Assembly: GCF_001514125.1 (NCBI RefSeq)
Contig: NZ_KQ948550.1
Coordinates: 731,105 to 795,104, forward strand
Source: Streptomyces longwoodensis
GTDB lineage: Bacteria > Actinomycetota > Actinomycetes > Streptomycetales > Streptomycetaceae
Reading direction: 5' to 3'
Length of the DNA stretch: 64,000 nucleotides
Of the stretch, positions 36,440-40,713 are shown one piece after another. The notes below the pieces were generated by a model. That model searched no databases. It saw nothing but the letters and a program-made list of their open reading frames with translations, and was not told where the DNA came from. The position numbers and the translations under genes were made by a program. How positions within the stretch are numbered: position 1 is the stretch's first letter; each line of letters starts with the position of its first letter.

Positions 36440-37369
36440 ATGGTGCGCACCGCACATGTCCTGTCCGTCGCCGCGCTGACCGGCGCCGTGCTCGTCACCG
36501 GTCCCGCCGCGCGGGCGGATCCGGCGGCGGAGGTCGGCCCGGCGAGCGTCGACCCGGGCGGCACCGTGACCGTCTCCGTCACCTGCGACCCGCTGGGCGC
36601 GCCGGCCCCGGCGACCCTGGACGCCACGTCGGACGCGTTCGCCGACGGCACCGCGCACCTGAGCAAGGTGACCGGGAGCGACGACGAGCTGTCCGGGCCC
36701 GCCTACCGCGGCACCGCGCGCGTCGCGGCCCCGGCGGAGGACCTCGACGACACCGGGGAGACGGACGACGAGAACGACGTGAACGACGTGAGCGACGCGG
36801 ACGATCCGTGGAACACCGGTGCCGGTGGCGCCGCCGACGACCCCGGGGGCACCGACGCGGACGCCGCCTGGACCGTCGACGGCACCTGCCCGGCACCGCC
36901 CGGCGGGCAGCCGAGCCACTGGAGCGCCCCCCTGCACTTCACCGGCTCCGGCACGGGCGCCGCCACCCCGGTCGCTCCGACCGCCCCGCACCCCGTCCCC
37001 ACCCCCTGCGACCGTCCGACCGACCCCCGGAAGCCGGGGACGGGCAAGGAACCAGGAGCGGCGGCCAAGGACCCGGGAGCCGCGGCCAAGGACCCCCGGG
37101 ACACCGCAACGGACCCCACGGACCCCACGGAGCCCCTCGAGCCGGTCACGCCGGTCGCGCCGGTTGTCCCCGACGCCCCCGACGCACCCGCAACCCGCTG
37201 GGACAGCCCCTGCGGCGACGCCCCCGTCCAGCACGGCGTACGCGCCGGACAGGGCGGCACGTTCACCGACTCCGTGCCCGCCCTGGCCGCCGGAGGCCTG
37301 CTGATCGCGGGTGCCGTGGGCGCCGCCGCCCACCGGCTGCGGCGGCGCGGCGGCACCGGCCGGACGTGA
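36440..37369 (+). CDS. Secreted or membrane-anchored protein, low-complexity, unknown function
   Basis: 309 residues. Signal peptide 1-26 (VRTAHVLSVAALTGAVLVTGPAARA). Residues 30-90 look like a small beta domain (GGTVTVSVTCDPLGAPAPATL), followed by acidic and Thr/Asp runs and Pro/Lys repeats with twice-repeated GAAAKDPGAAAKDP. Near the end, LAAGGLLIAGAVGAAAHRLRRR is a transmembrane anchor with a basic stop-transfer signal, so the protein is probably anchored with its body outside. No known family. The start is ATG 36440 with AAGGAG upstream. Confidence 0.7.
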   Translation: MVRTAHVLSVAALTGAVLVTGPAARADPAAEVGPASVDPGGTVTVSVTCDPLGAPAPATLDATSDAFADGTAHLSKVTGSDDELSGPAYRGTARVAAPAEDLDDTGETDDENDVNDVSDADDPWNTGAGGAADDPGGTDADAAWTVDGTCPAPPGGQPSHWSAPLHFTGSGTGAATPVAPTAPHPVPTPCDRPTDPRKPGTGKEPGAAAKDPGAAAKDPRDTATDPTDPTEPLEPVTPVAPVVPDAPDAPATRWDSPCGDAPVQHGVRAGQGGTFTDSVPALAAGGLLIAGAVGAAAHRLRRRGGTGRT

Positions 37370-37522
37370 TCACGTCCGGGGCCATGGACAGCGGCCGTGC
37401 GGGGTACTCACAGTGCGGGGGCACGACGCGCCCCGCAGGAGACACCGGACACCACGGACCCCGTGCGCCACGGTCGGCGGCGGTACACGGGAGCACCACG
37501 GACGGACTGCGCGGAGGACCCG

Positions 37523-38770
37523 ATGCGGCGGACGGAAGCGGAAGGGCACGGCCCCGTCCGCTATGGGCCGCCACTGCCCGCCGACGGTCTCCCGGTGCTC
37601 CCCGAACTCGCCGACGTGCTCGCCCGCGCCGCGCACCGCGCCGACGCGGAGCCGGTCGGCGGGGGACCGGCCCTGCTGGAGGCCGCCCGCGGCTACGGGG
37701 AACGGCGCGGTCTGCCCGCCGGCGCCGACCGGATCGTCGCGGGGCCCGGCGCCCCGGCCCTGCTGCTCGCGCTGACCGCCGTGCTCGGCGGCGACGTGCT
37801 GGTGCCGCGTCCGTGCGCCGCCTGGTGGACGCCGTACGCGCGTGCGCTGGGCCGGCCCGTCTTCCACGTGGCCACGCCCGCCGAGTGCGGCGGCGTGCCC
37901 GACCCGTACGCCCTGCTGGAGACCGTGCGCCGGGTGCGCGACGAGGGCGGCGACCCGCGGCTGCTGGTGCTGTCGGTCGCCGACGACCCCACCGCCACCG
38001 TCGCCCCGCCCGAAGTGCTGCACGAGGCCGTCGAGGCCGCGGCCGGCGCGGGACTGCACCTGGTGAGCGACGAGACCTGGCGCGACACCCTGCACGACGT
38101 CCACGACACCGTGCCGGTCAGCCCCGCCGAGATGCTGCCCGAGCACGTCACCGTGGTCACCGACCTGGCCGGCGCGCTGCTGCCGCCCGGCTGGCCCGCC
38201 GCCGTCGCCCGCTTCCCCGCGGGCCCCGCCGGTGACGGCCTCCACGCGCGCGTGCTGGACGTCCTCACCGCGCTCGGCGCGCGCGTCGCGGCCCCCGTGG
38301 CTGCGGCCGCCGCCTACGCGCTGGGCGAGCCCGAGCCCGTCACCGCGCGCGTGGCCACCGCCGTCCGCCTGCACGCGCGCGTGGCCGAGGCCGTGCACGC
38401 CGCCGTCGTCGGCGCGGGCGCGCTGTCCCTCCCACCGCGGGCCGGCCGCCACCTGTACGTCGACCTCGCGCCGCTGCGTTCCACGCTGTCCGCGCGGGGA
38501 GTCGGCGACGCCCAGGACCTGGAGGACTTCCTCGGCGCCCGGCTCGGCATGCCCGCGCCGGGCGGCCACCGCTTCGGGGACGACCTCGGCGCGCTGCGCG
38601 TACGGCTGTCCACCGGCCCGCTGCTGGGCACCACGGACACCGAGCGCACGGAATGCCTCACGTCCCCAGCACCGTTGGAACTGCCACACGTGCACCGCGC
38701 GTTGATCCACCTGAGGTCGGTCTTCGACGATCTCCGCGACGACGCTCAGCGATGGGAGCCCTCTCGATGA
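37523..38770 (+). CDS. Class I/II aminotransferase-fold protein lacking any lysine
   Basis: 415 residues with fold-type I landmarks: the LDALRG-like beginning is missing, but the middle has AGPGAPALLLALTAVLGGDVLVPRPCAAWW, LLVLSVADDPTATVAPPEVL, LHLVSDETWRDTL (substrate-binding Asp/Glu-Tyr position) and GHRFGDDLGALRVRLSTGPL (C-terminal Arg). The position that should hold the PLP lysine reads VTDLAGALLPPGWPAA, and there is no lysine anywhere in the protein. It therefore cannot form the internal aldimine and is probably not an aminotransferase in the usual sense. The ribosome site is GGAGG. The stop overlaps the MBL-hydrolase start by 4 bp (ATGA), pointing to a functional pair. Confidence 0.8.
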   Translation: MRRTEAEGHGPVRYGPPLPADGLPVLPELADVLARAAHRADAEPVGGGPALLEAARGYGERRGLPAGADRIVAGPGAPALLLALTAVLGGDVLVPRPCAAWWTPYARALGRPVFHVATPAECGGVPDPYALLETVRRVRDEGGDPRLLVLSVADDPTATVAPPEVLHEAVEAAAGAGLHLVSDETWRDTLHDVHDTVPVSPAEMLPEHVTVVTDLAGALLPPGWPAAVARFPAGPAGDGLHARVLDVLTALGARVAAPVAAAAAYALGEPEPVTARVATAVRLHARVAEAVHAAVVGAGALSLPPRAGRHLYVDLAPLRSTLSARGVGDAQDLEDFLGARLGMPAPGGHRFGDDLGALRVRLSTGPLLGTTDTERTECLTSPAPLELPHVHRALIHLRSVFDDLRDDAQRWEPSR

Positions 38771-39993
38771 CGCAGCAGTCCGGGACGACCACCACCCCTT
38801 TGACGGCGGCGACGGTCACCCCCACGCCGGCCACGTCACCATCCGCCCCCGCGCCGACATCCGCCCCCGACACCGAAGTCCCCCCGGACGCCCCTCTGGA
38901 CACCGGCCTCGACCCCCTGGATCCCCTGGACCCCGTCAAAGTCCTGGACACGCCCGGCACCGACGCTCCAGCCCCCACCCCAACCCCAGCTCCCGCCCCC
39001 GCCGAGCCGCTCGCGCAGCCCTTCCCGCCGCTCGCCGAGCCCCGCCCACTGGGCGAGCGACGGGTGTGGCCGCGCACCTTCCACGACCGGCTGACCGCCC
39101 CGCTGCCCGGCCTCAAGGCCATCGCCCGGTTCGCCCGCGAGGGTGCCGTGCGCCCCGGCAAGGACGGCCTGGCCGACATCCCCCGGCTGCCGTACGAGCC
39201 CGCGCCGCTGCCCCGCGTCGACGCCCGCACGGTCGCCGTCACCTGGGCCGGGCACGCCAGTTGGGTGGTGCGCGTCGGCGGCCTGACCGTGCTGACCGAC
39301 CCCGTGTGGTCCCGCCGCATCCTCGGCACGCCCGCGCGCATCACGCCCGTCGGTGTGCCCTGGGAGTCGCTGCCGCCCGTCGACGCGGTCGTCATCAGCC
39401 ACAACCACTACGACCACCTGGACGCCCCCACGCTGCGCCGACTCCCGCGCGACACCCCGGTGTTCGTGCCCGCCGGGCTCGGCGGCTGGTTCCGGCGCCG
39501 CCGGTTCACCCGCGTCACCGAGCTGGACTGGTGGGAGGCGGCCGAACTCTCCGGTGTCCGCTTCGACTTCGTGCCGGCCCACCACTGGTCCAAGCGCAGC
39601 CTCACCGACACCTGCCGCAGCCTGTGGGGCGGCTGGGTGCTCACCGCACCGGAGGGGCAGCGCGTGTACTTCGCGGGCGACACGGGCTACGGCCACTGGT
39701 TCTCCCGCATCGGCCGCCGCTACCCCGGCATCGACCTGGCGCTGCTGCCCATCGGCGCCTACGACCCCCGCTGGTGGCTCAGCGACGTCCACTGCGACCC
39801 CGAGGAGGCGGTCCGCGCGGCCCAGGACCTCGGCGCCCGCCGGATGGCCCCGATGCACTGGGGGACGTTCGTCCTGTCGGCGGAGCCGGTGCTGGAGCCC
39901 CTGACCCGGGTGCGCACGGCCTGGGAGCAGGCGGGCCTGGCCCGCGAGGACCTGTGGGACCTGCCGGTGGGAGGCTCCCGCGTGCTGGAGTGA
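38767..39993 (+). CDS. Metallo-beta-lactamase-fold hydrolase, NAPE-PLD/UlaG-like, with disordered N-terminal extension
   Basis: 408 residues. Residues 1-85 are Pro/Thr/Ala/Asp-rich and disordered. The MBL domain follows: the conserved VTWAGHASWVVRVGG, metal site VISHNHYDHLD (about 211-218), VPAHHWSKRS, the bridging GDTGYGHW and final MHWGTFVLS with a His. It matches the family of NAPE-phospholipase D-like hydrolases. Such enzymes hydrolyse phosphodiesters or lactone-type substrates; the specific one is unknown. Translationally coupled to the aminotransferase-like gene. Confidence 0.85.
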   Translation: MTQQSGTTTTPLTAATVTPTPATSPSAPAPTSAPDTEVPPDAPLDTGLDPLDPLDPVKVLDTPGTDAPAPTPTPAPAPAEPLAQPFPPLAEPRPLGERRVWPRTFHDRLTAPLPGLKAIARFAREGAVRPGKDGLADIPRLPYEPAPLPRVDARTVAVTWAGHASWVVRVGGLTVLTDPVWSRRILGTPARITPVGVPWESLPPVDAVVISHNHYDHLDAPTLRRLPRDTPVFVPAGLGGWFRRRRFTRVTELDWWEAAELSGVRFDFVPAHHWSKRSLTDTCRSLWGGWVLTAPEGQRVYFAGDTGYGHWFSRIGRRYPGIDLALLPIGAYDPRWWLSDVHCDPEEAVRAAQDLGARRMAPMHWGTFVLSAEPVLEPLTRVRTAWEQAGLAREDLWDLPVGGSRVLE

Positions 39994-40086
39994 CCCGCGC
40001 CCGCCCCCGCGCCGGCGCGCATCCGCGCCCCCGCGCCGCACTACCGCGCAGCCCGCCGCCGCACGACCGCGCAGCCCGCCCCTTCG

Positions 40087-40713
40087 CTACCGCGACGCCC
40101 CCCGCATCCGTCGGACGACCCCGGGCACCGCGCTGACCAGCACGGTCAGCGCGATCGCCGCCACCACGCCCTCCCACGGCTCGGGGAACAGCGAACCCCC
40201 CAGGATCCCGATCACCTGGTACGTCACCGCCCACGCCAGGCACGCGGGCAGGTTCCCCCGCGCGAACCGCCGCAGCGGCCACTTCGCCATCAGACAGGCC
40301 AGCATCACGGGTATGCGCCCGGCGGGCACCAGCCGGGACAGCACCAGCACCGCCACCCCGTGCCCGGCCAGCTTCTCCTGCGCCTGTTCCAGCCGGTCCT
40401 CGGGCGCGCGGGAACGTATCGCCTCCAGTCAGCGCGAGCCGTTCTTCGACTTCATCCCGCGCCGCCCCAGCCAGTACAGCGTCGCGTCCCCGAGGAACGC
40501 CGCGAGCGACGCCGTCACGAACACCAGCGCCAGCGAGAACGGCGCCGTCTGGTGGAACGCCACCACCGCCGCGGAACTGACCAGCGCGCCCGTCGGCACG
40601 ATCGGCACCAGCGCCCCGAACAGCACCAGCAGGAACAACGACGGGTAGCCGAGCGCCTGCTGCGTGGACTGGGTCGGCAGGGTCGTCGTGGCGGTGACGG
40701 CCAGCCAGTTCAC
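40087..40713 (-). pseudogene. DedA-family membrane protein interrupted by an in-frame stop
   Basis: The minus-strand frame from ATG 40713 encodes a DedA/SNARE-associated-like protein: PSLFLLVLFGALVPIVPTGALVSSAAVVAFHQ, ATLYWLGRRGMKSKNGSR, then a TGA (plus-strand TCA at 40429-40431) and, in the same frame, LEAIRSRAPEDRLEQAQEKL, VLVLSRLVPAGRIPVMLACL through RRMRGASR at 40087. DedA proteins export or flip lipids. In relatives the residue after KNGSR is a Trp; a single C-to-T change on the plus strand (TGG to TGA) explains the break. It could be a real mutation, a sequencing error, or suppressed. A second start at ATG 40356 would give only the last 89 residues. Coupled to the MBL gene by a 4-bp overlap. 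Confidence 0.85.

Follow-up and report, generated by a model that had tools for sequence, protein, structure and literature searches.

A lineage-conserved aminotransferase-fold protein without the Schiff-base lysine, encoded beside a NAPE-PLD-like MBL-fold protein in Streptomyces

Background

The window analysed here, the whole of a 64,000-nucleotide stretch of Streptomyces longwoodensis DNA, raises the question of what an aminotransferase-fold protein is kept for when the lysine that would hold PLP is missing. The first-pass annotation described the protein in question (P0001) as a relative of the class I/II aminotransferases, unable to form an internal aldimine and perhaps a PLP-independent or scaffold descendant that works with the MBL-fold hydrolase (P0002) encoded by the overlapping downstream gene. 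PLP-enzyme relatives that lack the lysine are already known, ColD being one precedent. A literature search, mostly among papers open without subscription, found no account of the Streptomyces family described here.

Methods

Homologues came from 80 named contigs and from three genome samples that overlap, one each for the genus (295 genomes), the family (150) and the class (296). The alignment comprises 222 loci with a query span of at least 300, or 206 rows after removal of identical rows, 154 without and 52 with the lysine; the lysine-less and lysine-bearing sets are defined by the residue at the lysine position itself. Re-fetches of one gene were left among the rows (for example L169/L180 and L170/L208), a named and an unnamed locus may be the same strain, and close relatives of the window are over-represented among the 154 clade rows. 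Rows therefore do not stand for independent genomes, and the genome counts and the diverse sets of 28 clade and 27 lysine-bearing rows are safer than the counts of 154 and 52 rows.

For the genome counts, the lysine-less class was set at an identity of at least 46%, and the residue itself was read in the fetched loci; 19 of the 31 lysine-bearing relatives in these counts were read at residue level, and all 19 have lysine. Genomes with split matches were counted once, via the first fragment, and the second fragments (G364, G391, G403, G414, G424) were left out. Genomes coded f1 are taken as Streptomycetaceae on the strength of their named relatives. 'Stops inside' flags were read as the search overrunning a probably shorter C-terminus and not as broken genes, because in the rows of this group that were translated, such as L157 and L159-L165, the open-frame match stops near query residue 404-406.

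Results and discussion

The gene and its fold

The gene of the lysine-less protein (37523..38770, forward strand) begins at an ATG just downstream of a GGAGG (37513-37517), and its open reading frame translates to 415 residues with zero lysines, as the first-pass annotation had stated. Fold and profile searches confirm the class I/II aminotransferase fold and uphold the landmarks read from the sequence earlier: PF00155, the sole Pfam match of the protein, is matched at E 9e-9 with 35.4 bits (cut-off 19.7); Thermus AspAT matches at E 3e-11; and an AlphaFold2 model built from 59 sequences (mean pLDDT 81.7) matches solved aminotransferase-fold PLP enzymes over 334-365 residues, the 50 entries listed having Z 32.5-36.9, with 36.9 the best. 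With NCBIfam, the GntC model gives the top score for 6 of 7 relatives scanned, and all matches, including those of lysine-bearing relatives, lie far below cut-off.

The absence of lysine as such is only moderately unusual in the window. At the lysine content of 1.9% that a crude prediction of the window's genes gives, zero lysines in 415 residues has a Poisson probability of 4e-4, and 2 of the 25 called window genes of at least 300 aa, the present gene included, have none. Within the clade, 82 of 154 rows contain no lysine at all, and the 52 lysine-bearing relatives contain 2-11. Because lysine-poor proteins are common here, the zero count, on which the first-pass annotation had built, is demoted as the key fact. 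The telling fact is the absence of lysine at one position, which separates 154 rows without it from 52 with it. A second, smaller MBL-fold protein of the window (257 aa, PF12706; 40710-41483, reverse strand) is likewise devoid of lysine.

Loss of the Schiff-base lysine and fate of the other cofactor residues

Alignment to Thermus AspAT places the PLP Schiff-base lysine at G217 of VTDLAGALLPPGWPAA (38171..38173, forward strand), a position occupied by lysine in 52 of 52 relatives, and the PLP-phosphate arginine of the GWR motif at P225 (38195..38197, forward strand), which is arginine in 52 of 52 relatives. The residue roles rest on AspAT residues that we take to be Lys258, Arg266, Asn194, Asp222, Tyr225, Trp140, Tyr70 and Arg386. 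In the lysine-less clade, the lysine is absent from 154 of 154 rows, glycine (135) or alanine (13) taking its place in all but six rows with other residues or gaps; a normal internal aldimine is ruled out, as had been proposed. Glycine is less dominant in the 28 diverse rows (G 12, A 10) than in all 154. Position 225 is proline in 145 of 154 rows and has kept its arginine in 2.

Other PLP-contact positions have also changed. D155 (37985..37987, forward strand) stands where the asparagine in contact with the PLP ring is expected, with asparagine in 52 of 52 relatives against aspartate in 154 of 154 clade rows, and is the only site found conserved in different states in the two diverse sets. Further replacements among the 154 rows are Y186 to W (134), W99 to A (126), K78 to P (124) and S216 to A (118), and the tyrosine at site 42, conserved in the relatives, is mostly replaced. 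The 28 diverse rows show the same kind of pattern more loosely; position 186, for example, is tryptophan in 12 and still tyrosine in 7. Two counterparts of catalytic residues are retained: D183 (38069..38071, forward strand), corresponding to the aspartate that contacts the pyridine nitrogen, in 154 of 154 rows, and R359 (38597..38599, forward strand), corresponding to the substrate-carboxylate arginine, in 148 of 154.

The old pocket sites have a mean entropy percentile of 0.36 in the 28 diverse clade rows against 0.04 in the 27 lysine-bearing rows; D154, D155, D183 and E184 are nonetheless invariant in 28 of 28 diverse rows (and, with E133 and R137, in 154 of 154 clade rows), and P75, G76, T157, L215 and R359 are nearly so. 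Most cofactor sites were thus released, part of the pocket was retained, and site 155 settled on a different residue. A further 11 sites vary among the relatives and are conserved within the clade, and 23 are invariant in the relatives and variable in the clade; four of the 11 (E133, R137, E164 and E171) lie on two predicted helices. All 11, together with D155, are identical in eight members without the MBL gene and in two basal members. One sub-branch (L124, L127, L128, L129 and L138) has indels in the loop that once held the lysine and intact DD and SDE motifs.

Compared with class I/II aminotransferases (PF00155; Thermus AspAT, 1bjw; plant prephenate aminotransferase, 5wmh), the protein thus has in common the fold along most of its length, sequence homology, the pyridine-nitrogen aspartate and the carboxylate arginine; it differs in lacking the Schiff-base lysine and in the replacement of the phosphate arginine, the ring asparagine and the stacking tryptophan, among other residues.

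A single, old loss

In a 69-row tree the lysine-less rows form one clade with support of 100/100, and the lysine-bearing relatives (52 rows, about 36-44% identical) fall outside it. The first-branching pair, L185 and L187, has lost the lysine and kept GWR. PF00155 scores run from 174, 175 and 144 bits in lysine-bearing proteins through 73 and 90 in the basal pair to 56 in L183, 37.5 in L165 and 35 in the window. The lysine was lost once, long ago, in the family to which the window belongs. A local mutation or a sequencing error is ruled out by the 154 of 154 clade rows without lysine: no orthologue with a normal active-site lysine was found in the clade, and the loss is both clade-wide and old. 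Lysine-less rows carry the family code of the window (f1) or come from named Streptomyces contigs, the one exception in naming being L038, labelled just Actinobacteria bacterium. Outside the family, the residue was read in 27 of the 38 matching genomes and is lysine in all 27.

The MBL-fold neighbour

The downstream gene (38767..39993, forward strand) encodes a 408-residue MBL-fold protein (PF12706, E 2e-48) with a Pro-rich N-terminus, and its ATG overlaps the TGA stop of the lysine-less gene (38768-38770) in an ATGA at 38767..38770, confirming the overlap reported earlier. Its closest solved structure is human NAPE-PLD (4qn9), matched at E 3e-62 over the catalytic domain, residues 155-407. 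Its HNHYDH metal-binding motif is at 39400..39417 (forward strand). Each of seven putative metal ligands is shared by 154-159 of the 159 relatives, the shortfall consisting of two substitutions and otherwise of unaligned positions. The sequence match and the seven ligands together make it a NAPE-PLD-like protein, probably a lipid-cutting enzyme; it differs from NAPE-PLD in being bacterial and in its long Pro-rich N-terminus.

Pairing of the two genes is real, as the first-pass annotation supposed. The lysine-less gene occurs in 83 of the 150 family genomes, the MBL gene in 71 and both in 69; in 67 of these 69 the MBL gene follows immediately downstream in the same orientation, and in the remaining 2 it is at or near a contig end. 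Of 141 loci that carry the two genes on one strand, 108 offer a start codon at the ATGA offset, and most of the other 33 have a short gap. No such MBL gene was found within 10 kb of any of the 31 lysine-bearing relatives in the family genomes, and the basal pair L185/L187 is already flanked by one.

The pairing is favoured and not obligate, since either gene occurs alone. No MBL of the NAPE-PLD type was found at E <= 1e-60 in 14 of the 83 genomes with the lysine-less gene, three or so of which are fragmentary there; of nine such loci inspected, eight lack any MBL match and one has a partial match. In the latter (L284, genome G410), a partial NAPE-PLD-type match of 70% identity adjoins the lysine-less gene, perhaps caught during loss. 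Conversely, genus genomes G156, G288 and G121 contain the MBL gene and no relative of the lysine-less protein above 38 bits, and G037, G271 and G376 contain it with only the lysine-bearing type and more distant paralogues. Outside the family, too, there are MBL orthologues that have no lysine-less gene beside them. The tree subset requires at least five changes of MBL presence. An obligate pair is therefore rejected. At some loci outside the family (L272-L275), short open reading frames, one a DUF6113 match, and no aminotransferase-like gene lie beside the MBL gene; L272 has an RraA-like gene near it, where the aminotransferase-like gene would be.

Selection and retention

Purifying selection maintains the lysine-less gene in close orthologues: median dN/dS is 0.28 over 990 pairs from 45 sampled close rows (about 0.26-0.28 in close pairs), dN/dS between the window and S. 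galbus is 0.025/0.100, and identity is 76-87% in 57 aligned named-locus rows besides S. galbus (95%). Distant pairs give 0.55 against 0.54 in the lysine-bearing set, a comparison made uninformative by saturation. The gene evolves faster than its MBL neighbour, as seen from a median dN of 0.114 against 0.069 (780 pairs, 40 loci; median dS 0.423 and 0.403, respectively), and it is missing from some genomes of the genus.

Genomic neighbourhood

Of 22 divergent loci with sufficient flanking sequence, 12 have PAP2/diacylglycerol kinase genes nearby, and 13 have VTT/DedA and second small MBL genes near the lysine-less gene; L177/L285 and L178/L280 each represent a single place, and the flanks of some loci are short. 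Neighbours in the window include the second MBL gene and a type I phosphodiesterase gene; PAP2/diacylglycerol kinase was not recognised beside the gene there, nor in 10 of the 22 divergent loci, some with short flanks. Phospholipids or lipid phosphates are in general the substrates of most of these families, from which we infer a link of the lysine-less protein to phospholipid turnover. In close relatives much of the region is syntenic, and linkage alone is weak evidence there for that reason. Beside the second MBL gene of the window lies a VTT/DedA-like frame (about 40085-40713, reverse strand) with an in-frame stop, of which relatives hold intact copies. Upstream of the lysine-less gene, 36440-37369 (forward strand) encodes an Asp/Pro/Thr-rich, probably secreted and membrane-anchored protein with a GVDTG sorting-domain match below cut-off and a homologue in 66 of the 80 named loci.

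Interpretation

The comparisons show that one ancestral change deprived a class I/II aminotransferase of its Schiff-base lysine, that the resulting protein has been conserved in the lineage, and that its remaining PLP-contact residues later drifted or gave way to others on a retained fold. The reading that we favour, at a probability of roughly one half for the whole of it, is that the old fold would now bind a small ligand, a partner protein or both, and act in phospholipid turnover as an accessory or regulatory subunit. The protein would have its own role where the MBL gene has been lost, and would serve, or be co-produced with, the NAPE-PLD-type enzyme where that enzyme is present. We are highly confident that the protein is no transaminase and holds no PLP covalently. 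That it is a neofunctionalised, PLP-free aminotransferase-fold protein, binding a ligand or partner as an accessory in phospholipid turnover, we propose with moderate confidence: the protein is kept across Streptomyces and relatives despite the loss of its PLP residues and has therefore probably taken on a new job, and the twin facts that the signature residues are identical in MBL-less and in basal members are counted in favour of neofunctionalisation. Counted against the whole are the larger number of sites relaxed (23) than gained (11); a synteny that may reflect shared ancestry rather than shared function; the loop indels of L124/L127/L128/L129/L138, which could be decay there; a distant-pair dN/dS (0.55) no lower than that of the lysine-bearing set (0.54); and the absence of the gene from some genus genomes and of a recognised PAP2/diacylglycerol kinase at the window.

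How closely the protein is tied to its neighbour bears on a doubtful alternative, in which the dead aminotransferase would be a dedicated scaffold or regulatory subunit that positions or gates the adjacent hydrolase in a stoichiometric complex. The adjacency in 67 of 69 genomes with both genes, its absence from all 31 lysine-bearing relatives, the ATGA start available in 108 of 141 loci and the MBL gene already beside the basal pair are as this alternative expects; the 14 of 83 genomes without such an MBL, the signature residues kept in MBL-less members, the five or more changes of MBL presence on the tree subset and the MBL genes without a lysine-less neighbour in several genus genomes and outside the family are not. 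Of the first-pass reading, the impossible normal aldimine and the real pairing thus stand, and a scaffold working only with the hydrolase is not supported. Slow decay of a gene with no current function would explain the relaxed catalytic pocket, the indels of one sub-branch and the absences within the genus; it is made very improbable by the 76-87% identity among named loci, the low dN/dS of close pairs, the six acidic and basic residues (D154, D155, D183, E184, E133 and R137) invariant in 154 of 154 rows and the retention of the gene after MBL loss.

Whether some catalysis survives turns on the residues of the old pocket. An enzyme using PMP or PLP non-covalently, another cofactor or none, in the manner of ColD, would account for the retained pyridine-nitrogen aspartate (154 of 154) and substrate-carboxylate arginine (148 of 154), and yet the arginine and serine that bound the phosphate and the asparagine and tryptophan that contacted the ring are replaced, the lysine position is glycine or alanine in 148 of 154 rows and histidine in none, and the conserved tyrosine of the relatives at site 42 is mostly gone; we consider it unlikely. 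hLCB1 belongs to a different PLP subfamily. hLCB1 (SPTLC1) is the subunit of serine palmitoyltransferase without the PLP lysine and works with hLCB2a (PMC3794620), a printed precedent, likewise in lipid metabolism, for keeping a lysine-less PLP-enzyme relative as a subunit. Partly kept substrate-type residues would suit a similar heterodimer; hLCB1, however, pairs with a catalytic homologue and the lysine-less protein has no such known partner, its nearest lysine-bearing relative (E <= 1e-15) occurring in only 8 of the 83 genomes with the lysine-less gene, while distant paralogues, present in the genome of the window, are other possible partners. A heterodimer of this kind has the least to recommend it of the explanations weighed here.

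A speculative extension of the favoured neofunctionalised accessory protein, which we hold to be rather unlikely, is a cofactor-free sensor in which an acid-lined pocket beside the kept arginine would bind a cationic or zwitterionic ligand and tune phospholipid headgroup turnover. Judged from sequence, pocket charge would be inverted from about +3 (K78, K217, R225, R359 and D183 in relatives) to -1 (R359, D155 and D183 in the window) by the loss of two lysines and one arginine and the fixation of aspartate for Asn155, K78 being assumed to face the pocket; candidate ligands would be ethanolamine, an amino acid, a polyamine or a metal, and the NAPE-PLD-type enzyme would be one output. In MocR/GabR regulators the aminotransferase fold serves ligand sensing (PMC6522883); GabR differs in forming a PLP-GABA external aldimine and in having a DNA-binding domain, whereas the lysine-less protein has no lysine and PF00155 as its sole Pfam match.

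Conclusions

General profiles still call the lysine-less proteins aminotransferases, with PF00155 scores above cut-off, and in building its families the B6 database discarded sequences without the lysine, rare exceptions aside (PMC2748086); a family of this kind can therefore go unrecognised. The loss is a single event on the tree, and both intermediates and lysine-bearing relatives survive for comparison, so that the step from enzyme to non-enzyme can be tested directly. The lysine-less family points to a phospholipid-related function in Streptomyces.
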